Shown here: in pieces, positions 5,482 through 54,220 of the stretch
Layout: every line of letters starts with the position of its first letter
How positions within the stretch are numbered: the first letter of the stretch is position 1
Assembly (NCBI RefSeq): GCF_036241575.1
Contig: NZ_CP108455.1
Span: 1,626,501 to 1,690,500 of the forward strand
Length of the DNA stretch: 64,000 bases
DNA from: Streptomyces sp. NBC_01267
GTDB lineage: Bacteria > Actinomycetota > Actinomycetes > Streptomycetales > Streptomycetaceae
Reading direction: 5' to 3'
The notes under the pieces: generated by a model
What the model saw: only the letters and a program-made list of their open reading frames with translations
What the model was told of the DNA's origin: nothing
The model's database searches: none
Translations under genes and position numbers: made by a program

Positions 5482-5835
5482 TCAGCTGTTGCCCGAGCCA
5501 CCGAGCTGGATGCCCGCCATCCGCTTCCACTCGTACGGGCCGGTGCGGACCTTGGCCGCGAACTCCCCGTCGAAGGATTCGTGGACGGTGACCCCGGCCT
5601 TCTCGGCGGCGCTCTGCGCCATGGCGTACGACGGGGCCATCAGGTCACCCCAGTCGCCGTCCTCGCCCACCAGCACGATGCGGGCCCCGCGCCGTCCGAT
5701 GTACGCGAGCTGCGCCTCGGCGCCGCCGTGCGCCCGGCCGAAGGCCTGGATCTGCTTGGCGAGCCTGGCCGTCCTGCGCTCGGCCCTGGCGTCGTGCTTC
5801 TCGTCAGCGTTCTCGTCAACCTGAGTCTCTGCCAT
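5482..5835 (-). CDS. Conserved hypothetical protein, 117 aa
   Basis: A small soluble protein with no signal peptide or membrane segment. The first 30 residues are charged and helical (DENADEKHDARAERRTARLAKQIQAFGRA). A compact region follows (RRGARIVLVGEDGDWGDLMAP, then AAEKAGVTVHESFDG). I recognise it only as a protein that commonly sits between the cta genes in Streptomyces. No function can be assigned. Confidence 0.7.
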   Translation of the reverse strand: MAETQVDENADEKHDARAERRTARLAKQIQAFGRAHGGAEAQLAYIGRRGARIVLVGEDGDWGDLMAPSYAMAQSAAEKAGVTVHESFDGEFAAKVRTGPYEWKRMAGIQLGGSGNS

Positions 5836-36133: not shown

Positions 36134-36152
36134 CGCGTGTGTCTCCTCGTCG

Positions 36153-36270
36153 CTCTGCATTTCTGGTCGCTCTGCACTGCTGATGCCGCGCTGCACTACT
36201 GGTCGCGCTGCACTACTGGTCGCGCTGTACTACTGGTCGCGCTGTACTACTGATCGCGCTGTACAGGTCG
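36153..36270. repeat. 17-bp tandem repeat in the leader of the large terD gene
   Basis: Unit CGCTGCACTACTGGTCG. Four units at 36189-36256 are near-identical, differing by C/T or A/G changes. Two degenerate units precede them (36153-36188) and a partial one follows (to 36270). It ends 20 nt before the start codon on the minus strand, so it lies in the promoter or leader. Confidence 0.85.
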
Positions 36271-42605: not shown

Positions 42606-44054
42606 ATGGCTGCTGCGCAGGTGGGGAAGACGACGTATCTGGAGCTGTCCCAGGAGGGCGGCGGGGCACACAAATTCTACGAAGTGACCGTCACCGGCAC
42701 GGTGGTAGCCGTGCGGTACGGGCGCATCGGCGCCGACGGGCAGCGCCAGGTCTCGACCTTCCCGACGGTCGAGAAGGCGAAGGCCGCCGCGGCGAAGAAG
42801 CTGGGTGAGAAGGTGCGCAAGGGATACGCACCGGCGGTACGGGGCGGGCGCGCACCCCGGTCCGTGACCCGCCGTCAGGTGACCTCGGCTCCTTCCACGG
42901 CGCGGGCGACGGCCCCGGTGCTCTGGCGGTTCCGTACCGGCACCTCGGCGTTCGGGATCCATATCGACGAGGACCACTGCTGGGTCGGAAACCAGCACGG
43001 CGATGTCTACACGCTGGGCCACGACGGCGAGGTGCTGGCCCGCTTCTCGCTGCCGGACGGCGTCAAGTGCCTGGTCGCGGACGACTTCTGGATCTACGCG
43101 GGGTGTGACGACGGCAAGGTGTACGACCTGTCGTCGAAGGTGCCCTTCGCCGCGTACGAAATCGCGGACGACGTGGACATCTTCTGGCTGGACATCCACG
43201 AGGGCGTGCTGAACGTGTCCGACCGCAGTGGCGGTCTCACGGTCATCGACCACGAGGACGAGTTCCAGTGGTCCCGCCGCTCCAACGGCAGCAACGCCTG
43301 GATGGTGCGAGCCGACGACAGCGCGGTCTATCACGGGCACACGCGCGGTGTGACGGCGTACGCCGCGGACGGCAGCGGCGAGTTGTGGCACACGGACACC
43401 TCCGGCGGCGTGCTCTTCGGCTGGCAGGAGGAGACCGCGGTGTACGCGGGAACGGGCCGGCAGGTCGTCGAGCGGCTGTCCAAGGCGACCGGCCGGAGCG
43501 AGGCGCGGTACCGGTGCGACGCGGCGGTCTACTCCTGCGCGACCTCCGCCGACGGCGAGTACGTCTTCGCGGGCGACCTCGCCTCCTCGGTCTACTGCTT
43601 CGCCGCGGACGGCACCCGGCTGTGGAAGCTGGGGACGGGCGGCGGCTCGGCGCTCTCCATGCAGTACCACGCCGAGAAGCTGTACATCGTCACCACGGAC
43701 GGCTCGCTGGCCTGCATCGATGCGAGCGAGGCGGCCATCACCGCGGCGCAGGGCGGAAGCGTTCCGGTCGCCTTGGACGTCAAGCAGGCTGCGGCGCTTC
43801 CCACGTACACCCCGGCGGCGACCGTGGCCACGGTGAGTGCGATGCCCGCGCCGGGAGCCGGGATAGTCGTGGAGTGCGTGCAGGTCGGCGGACGGCTGCG
43901 CGTCCAGGTGGTCTCGGACGGCTACGAACCCTCCTGGCACGTCCAGTTCCCCCGGGCGATACGTCAGGTCGGCGCCCGCTACGTGGTGGACGCGCTGCAC
44001 TCCTCCTCGGGCGGCTTCTACCGGGTGCGGGGAGAGATAAAGCGCCTGGTCTAG
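42606..44054 (+). CDS. WGR-domain protein with C-terminal beta-propeller
   Basis: 482 aa. Residues 5-80 are a WGR domain (TTYLELSQEGGGAHKFYEV, VAVRYGRIGADGQ), the fold that binds DNA ends and activates PARP enzymes in eukaryotes. A basic linker follows. Residues 100-410 then form a PQQ/WD-like propeller of about seven repeats built on phrases such as VGNQHGDVYTLGHDGE and FAGDLASSVYCFAADG. No catalytic domain is present. GGGAGGGG lies 6 nt before the ATG. Role unknown; a scaffold that reads DNA state is conceivable. Confidence 0.8.
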   Translation: MAAAQVGKTTYLELSQEGGGAHKFYEVTVTGTVVAVRYGRIGADGQRQVSTFPTVEKAKAAAAKKLGEKVRKGYAPAVRGGRAPRSVTRRQVTSAPSTARATAPVLWRFRTGTSAFGIHIDEDHCWVGNQHGDVYTLGHDGEVLARFSLPDGVKCLVADDFWIYAGCDDGKVYDLSSKVPFAAYEIADDVDIFWLDIHEGVLNVSDRSGGLTVIDHEDEFQWSRRSNGSNAWMVRADDSAVYHGHTRGVTAYAADGSGELWHTDTSGGVLFGWQEETAVYAGTGRQVVERLSKATGRSEARYRCDAAVYSCATSADGEYVFAGDLASSVYCFAADGTRLWKLGTGGGSALSMQYHAEKLYIVTTDGSLACIDASEAAITAAQGGSVPVALDVKQAAALPTYTPAATVATVSAMPAPGAGIVVECVQVGGRLRVQVVSDGYEPSWHVQFPRAIRQVGARYVVDALHSSSGGFYRVRGEIKRLV

Positions 44055-44701: not shown

Positions 44702-44817
44702 CCCTCCATCATCGCTGAGGTCGCCGACCGGCCATGACCGGTGAGGTCCCGGAGGGATGGCGTACGGTGTGGGTCGCGCGGGGCGAGATCGACACGCAGG
44801 CCAGGGGGTTGCGGACC

Positions 44818-46632
44818 ATGGTGATTCGTACTAGGCGGACCATGACCCGAGCCGCGAGCCGCGAGCCGCGAGCCGCGAGCCGCGAGCCGCGAGCCGCGAG
44901 CCGCGAGCCGCGAGCCGCGAGCCGCGAGCGGTGGTTGCGTGTTCCGGTCGGTGAAGATCCCGAGCGCTGGCGCACCCTGCCCGGCAAACGCCTCGTGGTC
45001 GCCGTGGCCCGCACCGTCACCTCGACCGTTCGGGTCCTGGACGTGCTGCGCCCCGTTCTGCGGGACGACCCGCGCGTCGATGTCGTCTTCGCGTACGACC
45101 CGACCTCCGCGTTCAACCACGGAGTCGAGGAGTTGCTGCGGACTGTCGGCGCCCGCGTCATGCCCTGGGGGCAGTTGGCCTCGGCCGAGCCCGATCTGAT
45201 CGTCACCGCCACCGAGAACGCCCGGCTTCCCGGAGTCTGTCCCGTCCTCGTCCTGCCGCACGGCGTGGGCTTCCACAAGACCGTCCCCGACTCCCGCAGC
45301 ACCCGCGAACGGCTGGCCGGGTTGGTGCCCGCCGCCCTGCTGCGCAGCGGGCGGGCCCGGCTCGCGGTCTCGCACCCGAGCCAGGCCGCGCAGTTGGCTG
45401 CCGCCCACCCCGCGGCGGACGGACTCAGCGTGCTCATCGGGGATCCCTGCTACGACGCGCTGCTCGAAGGCCGGAACCTGCGCGCCAGGTACCGCGACGC
45501 CCTGGGCGTGGGCCCTGAGCGACGACTGGTGATGCTGAGCACGACCTGGCGCGAGGAGTCCACCATGGGCTCTCAACCGGGCCTACCGGCCAGGCTGTTG
45601 GCGGAGCTGCCGAGGGACGAGTACGCCGTCGCCCTCGTGAGCCACCCCAATGTGCAGGCCGCGCACGGCTCCTACCAGGTGGAGACCGTACTCGCGTCGG
45701 CCCGCGGCTCCGGTCTGCTGCGGATCCCGCCCGCAGCAGGCTGGCAGGGAACGCTGTTGGCCGCCGACCTGCTGATCGGCGACCACGGATCCGTGACCTT
45801 CTACGGAGCCGCGCTCGGAACCCCGCTGCTGCTCGGCGCGTTCAGTGAGCACGAGGTGGTACCCGGCACACCGATGGCGGAGCTGGGCCAGCTGGCGCCG
45901 CGGCTCGTTCAGGACGCACCGTTGCGCGCACAGATCGAGCGCACACTCTCCGAGCACCAGCCGGACCGCTTCCGCAAGCTCGGGGAGAGCGCCTTCGCCG
46001 ACCCCGGTCACGCGTTGGGGAATCTGCGCACCGTGGTGTACGAACAGCTCCGGCTCGATCCGTGCGAGGGGCCTCCACCGCCCAGGCTGGCTCCCGTACT
46101 CCCCGTGCCACAGCCGGACGAGGAGGACACGACCGCGTCCGTCGTCATCACCCGGGTCGTCACCAGCCAGGGCGACAGCCGGGTCGTGGTCGAACGGTTC
46201 CCGGCGTCCGTCGCTCACCTCGTCGCCGAACCGGACACCGACCGCACAGACACCGACAGCACGGACAGCGTCTTCCGGTACGTGAGCTGCGGCGACGACG
46301 CCCGGGACCAGGGCGTCGCGGAGAGCGCATCCGTCCTGGTGCGCCGTACGGCCGCCCCCACAGCGGTTGCCGCGGCCCGCTGGGCCGAGAACGTCTTCGC
46401 CCGCTACCCCGGCGCCCTGCTCGCTGCCTCGTCGCTCGCGGGCGGCTGCTGCCGGGTGCGGCTCACAGACGGCCGTACGGTCGAGGTGTCCACGACCGGC
46501 CGGACGACCGACGCCGGGATGTCGGCCTCGGCCGTCTACAGCTGCCTCCGGGCAGGCCTGCCCCTGGCGGGCTTCCTCACCCTCTGCTTCGCCGGGCGCG
46601 AGGAGGACGTCACGCTACGACTGCTCCCCTGA
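44818..46632 (+). CDS. GT-B protein distantly like CDP-glycerol glycerophosphotransferase (module 1)
   Basis: About 604 aa. After a low-complexity start encoded by a 7-bp repeat (AASREPR repeated), residues about 40-430 look like a GT-B enzyme. LVLPHGVGFHKTVP resembles the HGTPLK motif of TagF-type proteins, MLSTTWREES the next strand, and IGDHGSVTFYGAALGTP the C-terminal donor-site motif. The last 170 residues are unassigned. I chose the ATG with AGGGGG 9 nt upstream and TACGGT further up. Starts at 44842 or, after the repeat, a TTG at 44935 remain possible. Paralogous to the gene at 48947. Confidence 0.7.
   Translation: MVIRTRRTMTRAASREPRAASREPRAASREPRAASRERWLRVPVGEDPERWRTLPGKRLVVAVARTVTSTVRVLDVLRPVLRDDPRVDVVFAYDPTSAFNHGVEELLRTVGARVMPWGQLASAEPDLIVTATENARLPGVCPVLVLPHGVGFHKTVPDSRSTRERLAGLVPAALLRSGRARLAVSHPSQAAQLAAAHPAADGLSVLIGDPCYDALLEGRNLRARYRDALGVGPERRLVMLSTTWREESTMGSQPGLPARLLAELPRDEYAVALVSHPNVQAAHGSYQVETVLASARGSGLLRIPPAAGWQGTLLAADLLIGDHGSVTFYGAALGTPLLLGAFSEHEVVPGTPMAELGQLAPRLVQDAPLRAQIERTLSEHQPDRFRKLGESAFADPGHALGNLRTVVYEQLRLDPCEGPPPPRLAPVLPVPQPDEEDTTASVVITRVVTSQGDSRVVVERFPASVAHLVAEPDTDRTDTDSTDSVFRYVSCGDDARDQGVAESASVLVRRTAAPTAVAAARWAENVFARYPGALLAASSLAGGCCRVRLTDGRTVEVSTTGRTTDAGMSASAVYSCLRAGLPLAGFLTLCFAGREEDVTLRLLP
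44848..44930. repeat. Heptanucleotide array (GCCGCGA) x 11
   Basis: Eleven perfect copies at 44851-44927 with partial units at both ends. Seven is not a multiple of three, so three units encode 7 residues and any gain or loss of one unit shifts the frame of the GT gene if translation starts upstream. Confidence 0.95.
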
Positions 46633-48792
46633 AGGGAATTCAGGGGAGGGGAATTCAGCCGAGAGGCGCTCGCGCAGGACAGCCACGCGCGGGCCGCCGC
46701 CCTCCTCGTAGATCTCCAGTGCCCGCACCAGGTGGCGCAGACGCTGGTCTCCCGAACAGAGCTCGGCCAGCGCCTCGCGTGCCGGGGCCTCGTAGTGGCG
46801 TGCGCCCACGGACCCGAACGCGTGCACGGCTTCCTCCAGCGCGGTGACCGCCTCGTCGTCACGTCCCAGATGGTGGAGCGTGGTCCCGATGGCGCTGCGT
46901 GCGCGGGCCGCCATCCGCTCGTCCTTCACCGTCAGCGCGAGGAACCGTCGCCAGGCCTCGTCGAGCGTGTCCAGGGCTGTGGTGTGCCGCCCCGCCGAGT
47001 CCTGTGCGCAGCCCAGGAAGTAGAGGCCGATGGCGATACCGCGCGAGTCACCGTCCAGGCGGTAGAACTCCAGCGCCTCCCCGTACGTCTCCACGGCGCG
47101 GGAGAGGTCGTGCCGGTCCCAGTAACGACCGTAGAACTCACGCGCGGAGGCCCGCAGCAGCGTGTCACCGCTCTCGTCGGCCCGGACGATCGCGGTCTCC
47201 AGCTCCGCGCGGGCACGGTCGTCGTCTCCGCGGTCCAGCAGGGGACGTGACACCAGGGCGCGCAGCCGGGACTCGGCGGCGGGATTCCCGTCCGCGGCGG
47301 CAGCCAGCGCGCCGAGCTCGCCGGACTCCGCCCAGTCGTTGAGGTAGCGGCGGTTGAGGTAGAGCGCGGTGAGCGCCTCCGCCAGCTCCCAGGTCCGGCG
47401 GTGCAGATTCAGCGCCGCCGCGGCGCGCACGGCTGCGAGGAGTTCGGCGCGGTGTCCGACCAGCCAATTCAGGGCGTCGGCCTTGGTGGAGAACGGCCCA
47501 GCGGCACCGTCTAGTCGCCGCGTGTACGCGCCGATGCGCATCCGGCCGCCCATCACGGCCAGGTCCGCGTACCCGGTGAGGGTGAGGAAGTGGTCGATCA
47601 CGCGCTTCACGGCTGCCGCGCGTTGTTCCCCGGTCTCGTGCTGTTCGGCCTGGCTGCGGGCGTGGAGGCGTACCAAACCGTGGAACCCGTACGGACCGGC
47701 GGGTTCGTGTCCCGGTCCGGCCCCCGGCTCCCGCTCCCCGTCGCCGGGCACCGCGACCTCCACCAGACTCGCCTCTTCGAGCGTGTCCAGGAGGCGCTGT
47801 GCCTGCCGGGGTGTCAGGTCCGCGAGAGCGGCGGCGGTCTCGGCGTCCCAGTGGTGCCCGGGATAGACGCCGAGGAGCCGGTAGAGGCGGGACGCCTCCG
47901 CATCGAGGCCCTCGTACGCAACGGTGAAGACGGCAGCCACAGCGTTTTCTCCTCCCAGGCTCAGGGCATCCAGTCGGCCCTGCTCATCGGCCAGTTCGGC
48001 GGCCAGCGCGGACGGAGTGAGTCCTCGGTGCATGGCCAGGCGGGCGCCCGCGACCCGCAGCGCGACAGGTAAGCCGTCGCAGAGGTCGACGATGCGGGCT
48101 GCCGCATCCGGATCGGCCGCCACGCGCCCGGCCCCGCACAGGTCCTCCAGGACGCGCAGGCCGTGCGCCGGTTCGAGCGGTCCGAGACGCATCAGCTCCG
48201 CGCCGGACATGACCAGCTCGCCGAGCCGTCCACGGCTCGTGGCGATGACGGCACTGCCCGGACCACCGGGGATCAGCGCTCTGAGCTGAGCCGGTTCGGT
48301 GACGTCGTCGAGCACCACCAGGACCCGCCGGAGCGCCGTGTGGCTGCGGAAGAGCGCGCACAACTCACCGAGTGTGGGTGGCAGGTATTCGTCCGTGACT
48401 CCGAGCGCACGCAGACAACTGGTCACGCCGGTGGAGACATCGGCGCCCGCCTCGCGGCGCAGTTCGGTGAAGTCGACATAGAAGTCACCATCGGGAAACT
48501 GCTCGCGCCGGTCCTGGACCCATTGCCGGACCGTGGCCGACTTCCCCATTCCGGGCAATCCGCTGAGCACCGCGACGCGCGCACCGTTGCCGCCCCGGCC
48601 GGCCCAGTCGTCGATGTCGCCGAGGACCGCCGTCCGATTGACGAACCCGGGCGACGCCGGGGGGACTTGCCGGGGCACCACAGCCGTCCGGGGCTGCGGC
48701 ATGTTCACGGTCAGAGCCCCGATCTCTCCTGCCTGAATGACGGGACCGTACGCGGTTCCGTCGAAGTCGTTCCTCACGGACCCTGAATCCAT
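46615..48792 (-). CDS. STAND NTPase: RHIM-like motif, NB-ARC domain, TPR repeats (module 1)
   Basis: 725 aa. Residues 8-25 carry N-D-F-D-G...PVIQAGEIG, a short motif like bacterial amyloid signalling sequences. NB-ARC: Walker A GLPGMGKS (78-85), Walker B RVLVVLDD (156-163), sensor TSR (185-187), GLPVAL (240-245). A winged-helix part follows, and the C-terminal half is helical TPR-like repeats (ALEFYRLDGDSRGIAIGLYFLGC and similar). All key NTPase residues are present. The ATG at 48792 has GGGGGAA 4 nt upstream and places QAG at residues 20-22, exactly as in the second copy. Its 3' end overlaps the convergent GT gene by 18 nt. Confidence 0.85.
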   Translation of the reverse strand: MDSGSVRNDFDGTAYGPVIQAGEIGALTVNMPQPRTAVVPRQVPPASPGFVNRTAVLGDIDDWAGRGGNGARVAVLSGLPGMGKSATVRQWVQDRREQFPDGDFYVDFTELRREAGADVSTGVTSCLRALGVTDEYLPPTLGELCALFRSHTALRRVLVVLDDVTEPAQLRALIPGGPGSAVIATSRGRLGELVMSGAELMRLGPLEPAHGLRVLEDLCGAGRVAADPDAAARIVDLCDGLPVALRVAGARLAMHRGLTPSALAAELADEQGRLDALSLGGENAVAAVFTVAYEGLDAEASRLYRLLGVYPGHHWDAETAAALADLTPRQAQRLLDTLEEASLVEVAVPGDGEREPGAGPGHEPAGPYGFHGLVRLHARSQAEQHETGEQRAAAVKRVIDHFLTLTGYADLAVMGGRMRIGAYTRRLDGAAGPFSTKADALNWLVGHRAELLAAVRAAAALNLHRRTWELAEALTALYLNRRYLNDWAESGELGALAAAADGNPAAESRLRALVSRPLLDRGDDDRARAELETAIVRADESGDTLLRASAREFYGRYWDRHDLSRAVETYGEALEFYRLDGDSRGIAIGLYFLGCAQDSAGRHTTALDTLDEAWRRFLALTVKDERMAARARSAIGTTLHHLGRDDEAVTALEEAVHAFGSVGARHYEAPAREALAELCSGDQRLRHLVRALEIYEEGGGPRVAVLRERLSAEFPSPEFPSGEQS

Positions 48793-48946
48793 CTTTTCCC
48801 CCGCGGCGGCCGACACCATCCGGTGCACACGCTACCCGTGCGGGCATCCGGGCGCCGGTACGATCTGGGCCATGCCGCTGCCCGACCCCAGGAACGTACA
48901 AGTGAATTACAGAAGCGGCATACATGGCGATACCGGACACTCTAGA

Positions 48947-50692
<1,746 letters not shown>

Positions 50693-50819
50693 AACATCGC
50701 GCGCGAGGGGAGTGCGTGCAGGCGATCGAACCCGCACCTCAGCCCCCACCTGAACCCCCTCCTGAACCCTTTCATGGAGCCGTTCCTGGAACCCTTCCTG
50801 CGGCTCGGACCCAGTCGGC
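50693..50819. other. Convergent intergenic spacer with CCTGAACCC-like repeats
   Basis: Between the second GT gene and the second NB-ARC gene. It holds degenerate copies of CCTGAACCC and CCTGGAACCC (50750-50800). No gene or clear terminator hairpin is visible. Confidence 0.4.
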
Positions 50820-52898
50820 TCAGAACCCGCCTTCCCGTTCGCGGAGCGCGGCAGCCGCCGCACGGTGGGCCGTTGCCGCGTCCGCGTCCCCGGTGTCCGC
50901 GGCCAGCGAGGCGAACGCCTCCAGAATCCGCACCTCGTCCCGAACCGAACCGCGTTCCCGCGCTCCACTCAGCGCGGCGGCGTACAGGCCGGCGGCCTCG
51001 TCCCGTCGACCGACGCGGTGCAGCACCCGCCCCAGTTCGAAGCCGGTCCGGGCCGCCATCCGCTCACGCTGCTGTTCCCGCGCCATCGCGTGGGCCTGTT
51101 CCAACAGCGCCACGGCCCGGTCCAGTTCGCCCATCCCCGCTGCGGCCTGGCCCAGCAGATGGGACTGGAGCAGCACGCCGTACGCATTGCCGATCCCGGT
51201 GTGGATGCGCAGCGATGCCTCGAAGTCCGGTGCGGCGCCCGCCCAGTCGCCTTGTACGGAGCGGACCTTGCCCCGGAACTCCAGGGCGGAGGCCAGCAGT
51301 TTCGGACGGTCCAGCAACTGGGCCGCGGCTACGGCCGGTTCCACCTCGGCATACGCCTCCTCGTACCGCTCCTGCTCCCACAGGGGGCGGGCCAGCTGGC
51401 AGCGCATCCGTACCAGAGCAGCGCTGTGCCCGGCCCGCTGGGCGGCGTCGCGCCCGGTGCGGAATGCCTCGGTCACATCGCCGTAGTGCGCATGGTCGAG
51501 GAAGTGGGTCCACAGGGGTTCGCAGAGCGCCCAGGCCGCGTCGTCCATCCCGTGCGCGTACGCGGTGCGGACACAGGCGTACAGAGCGAGCCGCTCTCCC
51601 TCCATCCAGTGCAGGGCACGCACCTTGCTCTCCCCGAAGTCCACGTCCGGCGCATCCGCGTCACCGGGCTCCGGCTCCGCGAGCGTCATCCGTGGCCCGG
51701 CCGCCAGCGCGTCGGCGCGCTGGGCCTGGCGCAGATACCAGTGGATCACCCGCTGCCGCGCCGCCGCGGCCTCGGCATCCCCGCCGTCCCGGCGTGCGCA
51801 GCGCACCGCGTGGGCCCGGAGCAAATCGTGCATCCTGAGCCGGCCGCCCCTTCCGGGGAGCAGCAGGCTGGCCCGCTCCAGCTCCTCCAACGCGTCCTCG
51901 GCCGCGTCCGGCCCCGCTCCGAGCAGTGCGGTGACGGCCTCGGGCGCGATGTACGGACCGGGGTGCACCGCGAGCAGCCGGTAGAGGCGGGCAGCCTCAC
52001 CGCTCAGGTCTCCGTACGCCGCGTTCCATACCGCTTCAACCATCGGGACCCCCCTCTCCGTCAGCTCGTCGGTCAACTGGGCGACGAGCCGCAGGAGTCC
52101 GCGCCTGCGGTGTCTGCGCAGCCAGTCACCCGCGACCTCCAGCGCGACCGGAAGTCCGCCACAGACCTGGGCCAGCCTCTCGGCCGCCGCGGTCTCGGTG
52201 GTCAGCCGGGGGTCGTCGACGATGCTCCGCAGCAACTGCGCGGCGTGCTCGTTCCCCAGCGGTCCCAGTGGCACCTCCAGGTCGGCGCCGCCCTTGAGGT
52301 CGTCCAGCCGCCCCTGGCTGAGGGCGATCACCACGCTGTCCGCCGACACCGGCATCAGCTGTTCCACCTCGAAGCCGACCCGTGCACCGTCGACCACTAC
52401 GACCATCCGCTTGCCCCGTGTACGCGCCCAGTACTGGCGCTGCCGTCCCGCATACGTCGGCTCCACGCAGTCCGGACGCACCCCCAGTGAGCGCAGCAGC
52501 TCTCCCAGGACTTCCGCCATCTCGACACCTCCGCCCCGGCGGTGGTCGTCGAGATCGACGAACCGCACGGCGTCCGGGAAGTCGCCGCCCAGCCGCCGCG
52601 CGAGGTGCACTCCGAGTGCGGTCTTCCCGACTCCTCGCACTCCGTGCACCGCGACGACGAGGGGCCGCTCGGCCTCCACGCGTCCCGGTCGTCCGATCCG
52701 TCCGATCACCCCGAGCACGGCGTCCCGTTCGCTCTCCCGGTTCACGAAGTGCGCGGCGCCCGGCGGCAGCTGGAACTCGGCGATATCCGGATCCGCATCC
52801 GCGCCCGCATGGAAGTGAACCTCCCCCACGCTTCCGGCCTGAACCACTGTCCCGACCCTGGCTTGCCCGCTCACGCTGTTCCGCGTCTCATCGACCAC
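50820..52898 (-). CDS. STAND NTPase: RHIM-like motif, degenerate NB-ARC, TPR repeats (module 2)
   Basis: 692 aa. Residues 7-25 carry N-S-V-S-G...TVVQAGSVG, with QAG at 20-22 as in the first copy. Walker A GVRGVGKT (86-93) is intact. The Walker B strand reads MVVVVDGA, with glycine where the second aspartate usually stands, and the sensor TSR is LSQ. GLPVAL is kept. The C-terminal 300 residues are TPR-like (EEAYAEVEPAVAAAQLL, LHRVGRRDEAAGLYAAAL). Nucleotide may be bound but hydrolysis looks weakened. GTG start 6 nt after a -10 box. Divergent from the HAD-like gene. Confidence 0.83.
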   Translation of the reverse strand: MVDETRNSVSGQARVGTVVQAGSVGEVHFHAGADADPDIAEFQLPPGAAHFVNRESERDAVLGVIGRIGRPGRVEAERPLVVAVHGVRGVGKTALGVHLARRLGGDFPDAVRFVDLDDHRRGGGVEMAEVLGELLRSLGVRPDCVEPTYAGRQRQYWARTRGKRMVVVVDGARVGFEVEQLMPVSADSVVIALSQGRLDDLKGGADLEVPLGPLGNEHAAQLLRSIVDDPRLTTETAAAERLAQVCGGLPVALEVAGDWLRRHRRRGLLRLVAQLTDELTERGVPMVEAVWNAAYGDLSGEAARLYRLLAVHPGPYIAPEAVTALLGAGPDAAEDALEELERASLLLPGRGGRLRMHDLLRAHAVRCARRDGGDAEAAAARQRVIHWYLRQAQRADALAAGPRMTLAEPEPGDADAPDVDFGESKVRALHWMEGERLALYACVRTAYAHGMDDAAWALCEPLWTHFLDHAHYGDVTEAFRTGRDAAQRAGHSAALVRMRCQLARPLWEQERYEEAYAEVEPAVAAAQLLDRPKLLASALEFRGKVRSVQGDWAGAAPDFEASLRIHTGIGNAYGVLLQSHLLGQAAAGMGELDRAVALLEQAHAMAREQQRERMAARTGFELGRVLHRVGRRDEAAGLYAAALSGARERGSVRDEVRILEAFASLAADTGDADAATAHRAAAAALREREGGF

Positions 52899-52910: not shown

Positions 52911-52959
52911 TTCAGCATCACTGGCATTGAGTGGATATCAGGGCGGGAAGCATCTCTCC

Positions 52960-53493
52960 ATGACGGTTCGCCCGCTGCTCCTCCTCGACGTGGATGGCCC
53001 CCTCAATCCGTACGCCGCCCGCCTGCCCCGCCTGCGCGGCTACACCACACACCGATGCCACCCCGCCAACTGGCTCTCCCGCCAGACCCCCGGCTCCCGC
53101 GCCCACCGCCGGGGCCTGCGCGTCCGTCTCCTCCCCGGGCACGGTGCCCGTCTCACCGCGCTCCCCTTCGACCTGGCATGGGCGACCACCTGGATGCACC
53201 AGGCGAACGAGATGATCGCCCCAGTCATCGGCCTGCCCCACGACCTCCCGGTAATCGAATGGCCGGAACTCTTCGCCAAGGACCCCGACGGCCTCTACTG
53301 GAAGACCCGCCCTCTCCTGAACTGGGCCGCGGGCCGCCCGTTCGCCTGGGTGGACGACATGATCACGGACCTGGACAGGGCCCACGTCACGGCCCACCAC
53401 GACGCTCCTTCGCTGCTGCTGCGCATCGACCCCCGCCGCGGTCTGCGGGAGACGGACTTCGCCACACTGATCAGTTGGTCGAAGTCCTTGTGA
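52960..53493 (+). CDS. HAD-like small hydrolase family protein
   Basis: 177 aa. LLLLDVDGPLNPYA has the D-x-D of HAD motif I, WATTWMHQANE is the TT/W motif seen in this actinobacterial group, and FAWVDDMITD gives the paired aspartates of motif III. Likely a phosphatase-fold protein; in this small subgroup no substrate is known to me. The ATG at 52960 has GGGAAG 9 nt upstream. It is 61 nt from the divergent NB-ARC gene. Confidence 0.75.
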   Translation: MTVRPLLLLDVDGPLNPYAARLPRLRGYTTHRCHPANWLSRQTPGSRAHRRGLRVRLLPGHGARLTALPFDLAWATTWMHQANEMIAPVIGLPHDLPVIEWPELFAKDPDGLYWKTRPLLNWAAGRPFAWVDDMITDLDRAHVTAHHDAPSLLLRIDPRRGLRETDFATLISWSKSL

Positions 53494-54220
53494 CGCCGTG
53501 AGGGCTTCCCCGGATAGGCCTCCGCGGCTCCCGCCTCGTAGAGAGGCTTCCCGATGCCCCGGTCCTTGTGCCTCCGCTGCCCCGGAGACCACAGGGCTGG
53601 TCACCTGTACGGAACCGGGCGAGGACGAGGGCTTGCGACCGGTCTAAGCGGTGGGCATAGCTCGGCAGATGGCTTCATGCAGGCACAAACGCTGAGGCCC
53701 GCGTCGCAGCCGGGGCTGGGTTCTGGGTCTGGGTCTGGGTCTGGGTCTGGGTCTGGGTCTGGGTCTGGGTCTGGGGCCTGGGCCTGGGCCTGGGCCTGGG
53801 TCTGGGTCTGGGGCACGCTCCCTCGTCGATCCGTCATCTCAGCCCTCCAAGCCGCCCATACGGCCGGGCAGCCCGATCCAGTCCTTCATTGCGCACTGGA
53901 CCAATGCCTTGATGTGTACCTTGCCCCCAACCTCACGTCTCGTCCGAGACATATGAAGCCGCCCGTTCCGAGATGACCGCAGCTCCGCCGTCCTTGAACA
54001 CGTCCTCGCAGAACGACGCCACCTCTGCCGTACCCGGACGGTTTCGAGCCGGCACGGAGGCAGGCCGGACTGCGGGCGAGCGACGCGGAGGGCTGGTTGC
54101 ACTTCGCGCGGCCGGGCGAGACACGGTGCGCGTCCCTGCGGTGCGCTTGGCCGGGCGTCGGGAGCCTCCTGATACTCGACAAGTGGCTGGACGGGTTCAG
54201 GGCGCCCGCTCGGCGTCGGC
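53494..54220. other. Gene-poor stretch with low-complexity DNA and possible gene remnants
   Basis: 727 bp with no ORF I can support. It holds the TCTGGG array (53722-53812). On the plus strand at about 54020-54205 a frame reads like decayed coding sequence (YPDGFEPARRQAGLRASDAEGWLHFARPG, then LLILDKWLDGF) without a start. On the minus strand a 78-aa frame from 53837 has GGAGGG 5 nt upstream but consists of PD and QA repeats. These are more likely relics than genes. Confidence 0.5.
53722..53812. repeat. Hexanucleotide array TCTGGG/CCTGGG
   Basis: Nine TCTGGG, then one extra G, four CCTGGG and two TCTGGG. Six is a multiple of three, so expansion would be frame-neutral if it were translated. 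Confidence 0.95.

Follow-up and report, generated by a model that had tools for sequence, protein, structure and literature searches.

Two pairs of convergent genes lie next to each other at 44.7-52.9 kb of a 64,000-nucleotide stretch of the Streptomyces sp. NBC_01267 genome (contig NZ_CP108455.1, positions 1,626,501 to 1,690,500; hereafter the window, whose own numbering is used throughout). Each pair joins a gene for a putative transferase (GT) on the plus strand to a gene for an NLR-like protein on the minus strand. We propose that each unit very likely consists of a phase-variable (contingency) transferase gene and a convergent NLR gene. The proposal builds on features that were read directly from the DNA: repeat arrays in the GT genes, their two preferred positions, their non-triplet periods, the change of copy number between strains, the reading frames across in-gene arrays, and the linkage to the NLR gene.

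Two gene pairs with heptanucleotide arrays

Both GT genes of the window carry at their 5′ end a perfect heptamer array that the initial annotation of this DNA does not mention. In what follows, OFF denotes a gene whose frame differs across the array, and ON a gene in frame with the enzyme through it. The features of the two pairs are:

44842..46632, plus strand: GT1, PF04464-like transferase; frame open from 44734; ON from the ATG at 44842, in frame with the enzyme through the array
46615..48828, minus strand: NLR1, NB-ARC and TPR; N-terminal RHIM-like stretch GPVIQAGEIG (by eye); NB-ARC 35.9 bits
48872..50692, plus strand: GT2, paralogue of GT1, ON from the ATG at 48872; open reading frame 48737-50692; no Pfam match
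50820..52898, minus strand: NLR2, NB-ARC and TPR; N-terminal RHIM-like stretch GTVVQAGSVG; NB-ARC 25.1 bits
44848..44929, plus strand: heptanucleotide array CGAGCCG at the 5′ end of GT1, 11.7 copies, 100% matches (Tandem Repeats Finder)
48961..49021, plus strand: heptanucleotide array AGCGGTC at the 5′ end of GT2, 8.7 copies, 100% matches (Tandem Repeats Finder)
44809..44834, plus strand: promoter-like stretch of GT1 (by eye), TTGCGG and TACTAG separated by 14 nt, with 7 nt between its end and the ATG at 44842
48859..48864, plus strand: -10-like box TACGAT of GT2, 7 nt before the ATG at 48872, a candidate leaderless start
48943..48948, plus strand: second -10-like box TAGAAT of GT2, 12 nt before the array (by eye)

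In both GT1 and GT2, the frame is open from the start codon before the array into the enzyme. Seven is not a multiple of three, and therefore every copy gained or lost shifts that frame. A near strain (L012), 98.5% identical to the window over the part compared, differs at both arrays. Its GT1 array has 25.1 copies in a tract that exceeds the window's by 98 bp (14 units), and the ATG there is out of frame; its GT2 array has 11.7 copies, 21 bp or exactly 3 units more, and the frame is kept.

The open reading frame coordinates bear out the initial annotation's description of head-to-tail units in which a GT gene and a STAND ATPase gene converge, with an 18-nt overlap in the first (46615-46632) and a 127-nt spacer in the second (50693-50819). 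The GT1 start that it gave, 44818, lies inside the open frame 44734-46632, but the true start is probably 44842, and that of GT2 is probably 48872; NLR1 may truly start at 48792 or 48777. As it had also stated, the GT genes are paralogues (35% identity over 503 aligned columns, E 6e-65) and the NLR proteins share their architecture: they are 33% identical over 691 columns, both pass the NB-ARC cut-off of Pfam (23.5 bits) and both contain the Walker A motif GxxGxGK[ST], with TPR models matching below their own cut-offs. Within the source genome (8.07 Mb, 3 contigs), GT2 as query recovered only itself and GT1 at E 0.001, one further weak PF04464 place was found at 6.43 Mb, and the best match of NLR2 among 8 other places found was NLR1. 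The duplication of the module is old, since the two GT genes sit in separate parts of the family tree; on this ground we rejected a recent tandem duplication. One relative, L011, has module 2 only, between genes related to those that flank the window's pairs.

Copy number and reading frame across the GT family

We defined an array as a perfect repeat of period 4-12 with at least 3.5 copies and at least 24 bp. The GT regions of our first set contained 107 arrays, a count that includes two locus pairs that are the same DNA from two collections. The period was 7 in 95 of them, 8 in 6, 10 in 3, 6 in 2 and 9 in 1, and was thus not divisible by 3 in 104. The other 873 kb of the same loci and the window yielded 22 arrays, made up of 17 with multiples of 3 and 5 heptamers (Fisher p 4e-14 for the periods in GT regions versus this background), and a 400-kb sample of the source genome held no such array. 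A second sample of 40 regions with 42 genes, hand-picked among the matches of the family-wide search described below, from other genera only and mostly on large contigs, gave 27 arrays, 26 of which had a period not divisible by 3 and three of which were tetranucleotides. Throughout the family, arrays occupy two sites, the 5′ end of the gene or one loop inside the enzyme. At the latter site, 38 of 41 arrays begin at a distance of 284-291 bases from the start of the N-terminal model, directly behind the motif HGxGxxK, and are built from 19 different units. Comparing stop-free units in sense and antisense was uninformative (0 versus 1 of 41 units counted by class).

At the in-gene arrays, whether the enzyme is in frame depends on the number of copies. 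We assembled a phase-blind sample by searching with the GT part downstream of the in-gene site and keeping all 61 genes with E < 1e-19, a threshold that excludes three partial matches (E 1e-14 to 1e-9) and everything weaker. Its in-gene arrays comprised 7 ON and 8 OFF genes, L165 among the latter being cut by a contig end; L111, the N-terminal part of which is broken elsewhere, was counted apart. The second sample added 9 ON and 5 OFF, giving 16 ON and 13 OFF genes for the two together. Of the 14 OFF genes in the entire first set, 13 have both halves open as far as the array, and so do all five OFF genes of the second sample and 3 OFF genes on plasmids.

Close relatives were found in different phases. 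The plasmids of S. anthocyanicus NBC_01668 and NBC_01372 are 99.3-99.5% identical around the GT gene, which has 17.6 repeats and is OFF in the former and 9.6 repeats and is ON in the latter (8 repeats apart); the annotated coding sequence is 436 aa long in NBC_01668 and 589 aa in NBC_01372. Similarly, S. coelicoflavus NBC_00099 and NBC_00357 are OFF and the related SYP-A7193 is ON, and L135 is ON and L137, 91% identical to it, OFF. Among the non-identical pairs of at least 88% identity with arrays in both members, copy number differed in 7 of 7. To judge from these sequences, phase variation at the in-gene arrays is highly probable. L135 also has a second heptamer array, TGGGCAA x9.9, at 5667-5736, about 900 bases upstream of its ON in-gene GT.

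The family is widespread in Streptomycetaceae. Of the genomes sampled, profile searches detected it in 132 of 295 from the genus (E 0.001) and, for Streptomycetaceae as a whole (E 1e-20), in 62 of 121, with 12 of 16 genera represented. Phylum-wide, 11 of 296 genomes had a match (E 0.001), and the five below 1e-70 were four Streptomyces and one genome from another family. A scan of named genomes gave 16 loci, mainly in Streptomyces and Kitasatospora; two of these, L012 and L025, have two pairs in tandem. In L025 (Actinokineospora iranica), one pair has a 7-base 5′ array and the other an 8-base in-gene array. GT copies were present in 7 plasmid records, six of which were retrieved for comparison, and in none of 50,697 phage records at E 1e-5. 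For nine GT genes (L102-L107, L109, L112 and L116), the match ends near model position 378, short of the C-terminal domain; these keep the convergent NLR gene, and most have a second NB-ARC gene on the other side. Most of the 120 homologues listed, of 467 found, are named "translation initiation factor 2". No domain of that factor was detected in the window's GT proteins (Pfam and NCBIfam) or in two 16-member alignments (Pfam for both, NCBIfam for the second), and the name is a misnomer for this family.

The 5′ arrays and a possible leader effect

The window's own arrays are of the 5′ type. In the GT2 clade, 18 of the 22 readable genes, the window's included, combine a -10-like box with a leaderless ATG or GTG, situated 77-111 bases ahead of the array (three more genes are cut by contig ends, and L046 was omitted as a near-twin of L045). 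The box has the form TANNNT and lies 5-9 nt before an ATG or GTG that stays open to the array; relative to the enzyme, this start is in frame 0, 1 and 2 in 9, 4 and 5 of the 18 genes, respectively. Near the place of the second box of GT2, many relatives also have a TANNNT-like box, although their array units differ (by eye; significance not computed), and six Kitasatospora loci without a long array have a like -10 box too (by eye). In the GT1 clade, the array often comes just after promoter-like sequence, and many relatives have a TTG ... GATA-like box shortly before it (by eye; significance not computed). A frame switch at 5′ arrays such as the window's two is likely, if less certain than at the in-gene arrays, and leader arrays could tune expression. 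Phase variation of the window's two genes themselves seems probable from their sequences.

A competing explanation for these arrays is that they act in the RNA leader or promoter region, where copy number would set the length of the 5′ leader and hence the amount of enzyme, not its frame. The -10-like boxes that many genes of both 5′ clades have a short way ahead of the array (by eye) are in line with this idea, and so are the stop codons that separate array from enzyme in 14 of the 52 genes with a 5′ array. Most of these stops belong to the GT1 clade, where they interrupt the GT frame of 13 of 25 array-bearing genes between array and enzyme; in these 13, the array is therefore not translated into the enzyme, and a leader effect must be considered there. 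The GT1 gene of the window, unlike those 13 members of its clade, is open through the array. A leader effect would leave unexplained why arrays also occur inside the gene, why so few periods are triplets (3 of 107) and why 18 GT2-clade genes have open leaderless frames, and we regard it as an unlikely account of the arrays.

Besides these stops, several observations weigh against phase variation as proposed here. Four of the 22 GT2-clade genes (L035, L038, L039 and L044) have no open leaderless start before the array, and in the window's GT2 another in-frame ATG (49022) follows directly on the array and could bypass the switch. Some lineages do without arrays: the six Kitasatospora loci have none or one short one, and the clade of nine tested GT genes without the C-terminal domain has neither an in-gene nor a 5′ array. 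Heptamers are also not confined to GT regions, as shown by those among the 22 background arrays of the first sample and by two of the 5 arrays in 211 kb of second-sample background. The share of ON genes is above one third, 7 of 15 for in-gene arrays and 9 of 18 for leaderless starts, but not significantly so (p 0.28 and 0.14), and ON and OFF frames were read from assemblies, in which long arrays can be wrong where the draft is from short reads. The S. anthocyanicus plasmids yielded no more than a fragment of the NLR gene, and their GT gene still varies. Finally, one member of one 16-member alignment matched NF041631 of NCBIfam, "KRQAASG repeat spurious translation"; the member is probably L070, a guess from its repeat peptide.

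Elsewhere in the window, a protein with a WGR domain and a beta-propeller-like part is encoded directly upstream of the module (42606-44054) and is 93% conserved in L011. A hexamer array at 53712-53812 (TCTGGG x9.0 and GGGCCT x4.5) lies between a HAD-like open reading frame (52927-53493, plus strand, named by eye) and a TetR gene; L012 has TCTGGG x7.0, so that this array varies in steps of 6. A 17-base tandem repeat of 6.5 copies with 87% matches occupies 36149-36261.

The NLR partner, the enzyme and related systems

The linkage of GT and NLR genes is real and old. All 16 named loci had a convergent NLR gene (split into three pieces in L018), and so had 54 of the 61 phase-blind genes of the genus (2 of the 7 exceptions are cut off by the end of a contig) and 39 of the 42 genes from other genera. 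The initial annotation had suggested a neighbourhood survey of this kind, and the outcome that it named as refuting, homologues that are almost never neighbours, did not occur. Counting from the measured end of the GT core, the NLR gene began no more than 1.8 kb away in 133 of 146 genes, with 3 more at a contig end (two duplicate loci counted). Distances in the GT tree and in the NLR tree correlated with r 0.79 over 127 pairs, against 0.08 for the best of 2000 permutations, a correlation that is partly due to shared species history. The recurrence of the pair and the matching tree distances speak for the earlier suggestion that the linked genes function together, and we lean towards a functional coupling of GT and NLR on this comparative evidence. 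The accompanying suggestion was of a surface-polymer modifier controlled by an NLR-like switch; the switch visible in the DNA, however, is the repeat array in the GT gene itself and not the NLR.

Both NLR proteins of the window belong to the NB-ARC class by their scores. Against the AfsR model NF053617, NLR1 and NLR2 reach 293.8 and 194 bits, far below the equivalog cut-off of 1430. Across the family, the N-termini vary, with a RHIM-like VVQAG stretch in many and a helical-looking region in most of the in-gene clade (by eye); a loose RHIM-like pattern was found in 34 of 98 NLRs. RHIM-like or helical N-terminal regions can act in signalling. The family resembles AfsR and the NLRs of BASS in combining NB-ARC and TPR and, in many members, in the RHIM-like N-terminus. 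In BASS, the same amyloid motif occurs in the NLR and its neighbour, whereas the adjacent GT lacks the strict motif: V[VI]QAG was found in 0 of 145 GT genes and the loose pattern in 2 (parts of the genes tested, with the stretch between N-terminal part and core outside the scan). A shared RHIM/BASS motif linking NLR and GT was rejected accordingly (for background, see PMC7885112, PMC7889193 and PMC12261475; here and below, papers are cited from excerpts).

These data also bear on a second alternative, a conflict system resembling Pgl, in which the GT would be a costly or toxic defence enzyme, phase variation would spare the cell, and the NLR would be the trigger or the antidote. In S. coelicolor, Pgl is phase-variable and the toxicity of PglX is suppressed by PglZ (PMC4365076), and both the tight pairing of GT and NLR and the N-termini just described would suit such a system. 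However, among in-gene loci with enough flank, the NLR was intact in 13 of 13 OFF loci (L111 included) and in 24 of 26 ON loci, so neither gene needs the other's state, and there was no sign that the state of the NLR is tied to the phase of the GT. Together with the absence of the strict motif from the GT genes tested and with the PADLOC result, which in the window gave two weak matches only, both to NLR2 (E 0.004 and 0.014), this makes a conflict system rather doubtful.

The least probable reading, that the arrays are spurious or neutral linkers of variable length in tolerant places and the OFF genes ordinary pseudogenes, can draw on the NCBI model that treats a translated repeat of this sort as spurious and on encoded repeat peptides that differ between relatives, but we consider it very improbable, since neutral linkers would favour triplet periods, the halves of nearly all OFF genes are open up to the array with the frame differing across it, 400 kb of the source genome hold no such array, and two positions have been kept while the units turned over.

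The enzyme is predicted to be a GT-B-type transferase with motifs like those of CDP-glycerol glycerophosphotransferases. GT1 scores 30.6 bits against PF04464, above the Pfam cut-off of 22.1, and the motifs HG...K, HP and D.G(S) are invariant or nearly so in the family; we take HG, HP and D.G to correspond to the TagF motifs. The family differs from TagF/TarF-like proteins in its own C-terminal domain, in the array loop after HGxGxxK, and in that GT2 and most scanned members have no PF04464 match. At E 0.01, two alignments of 16 members each, both including GT1 of the window, gave 4 PF04464 matches in one and 1 in the other; in the latter, 5 of 16 members matched Epimerase_2 instead. Searches of the PDB by sequence found no relatives for the two alignments and three chance-level matches for GT1. 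The relation of the family to PF04464 is weak, a point against the proposal. Because of the PF04464 match of GT1 and the TagF-like motifs, an envelope glycopolymer is the likeliest target, and we favour it with some reserve.

Switches of similar kinds are known. In neuO of E. coli K1, which encodes the O-acetyltransferase of prophage CUS-3, a heptamer lies in the 5′ coding region and the gene is ON if the repeat count is a multiple of 3 (PMC3046976); it is OFF in 42 of 64 genomes, and O-acetylation increases survival against K1 phage (PMC13001214). The likeness lies in a 5′ heptamer array in an enzyme that decorates a surface polymer, with copy number deciding the frame. Enzyme and host are unrelated, three repeats in neuO add one heptad to the N-terminus, and the GT family has in addition the in-gene array position and the NLR partner gene. 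Set beside neuO, the family has a perfect non-triplet array in or at the 5′ end of the coding region, copy numbers that differ between close strains, and a copy number that sets the enzyme frame at in-gene arrays and, in part only, at 5′ arrays. The Haemophilus gene lic2A is likewise a transferase gene switched by a repeat tract in its reading frame, and its OFF cells resist phage HP1c1 (PMC6625227). Pgl, phase-variable through a G tract in pglX, is an anti-phage trait of the same genus as the window and switches at frequencies of 1e-2 to 1e-4 (PMC4365076). The tract of lic2A, however, is the tetranucleotide CAAT and its polymer is Gram-negative lipopolysaccharide, and Pgl is a four-gene system with a homopolymer G tract in a methyltransferase gene. 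To our knowledge, lic2A-type loci have no NLR partner and Pgl has no GT or NB-ARC pair.

We infer that DNA polymerase slippage adds and removes copies of the 7-base repeat (4-, 8- or 10-base in relatives). As the unit is not a triplet, each change would shift the frame, and the enzyme would be made or not made in a random fashion. The enzyme would most likely alter a cell-envelope glycopolymer, such that a colony would become a mix of surface types and phage attack would be blunted. By analogy with neuO, lic2A and Pgl, phage would be the likeliest selective force, although we put its being the main one slightly short of probable. The NLR would be an intracellular sensor that is kept alongside whatever phase the GT is in, probably against the same threat. 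That it senses the state of this envelope polymer, or the corresponding phage, and then kills or arrests those cells whose surface is phage-permissive, is a speculative extension that we think improbable; if true, it would place two layers of immunity, surface diversification and then sensing, in one conserved gene pair.

Repeat-mediated phase variation and transferase contingency genes are already known kinds. As far as we searched, what is new is the scale in Streptomycetaceae, the two preferred array positions with turnover of units, and the pairing with an NLR; no earlier paper on the system was found, by title or abstract opening, among the papers listed from one open-access library (PMC5982138 was among those consulted). 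The label "translation initiation factor 2" and, in the case of one repeat type, a "spurious translation" model have kept these genes out of sight, and curated pipelines may discard real phase-variable reading frames. Pathogens with small genomes are the best-known setting for simple-repeat phase variation; in the present case, it appears to be widespread among soil bacteria that produce antibiotics. It offers a ready hypothesis for surface or phage phenotypes that are unstable between stocks of one Streptomyces strain. Moreover, it gives a bacterial NLR a definite partner gene that can be switched, and what such NLRs sense would thereby become directly testable.

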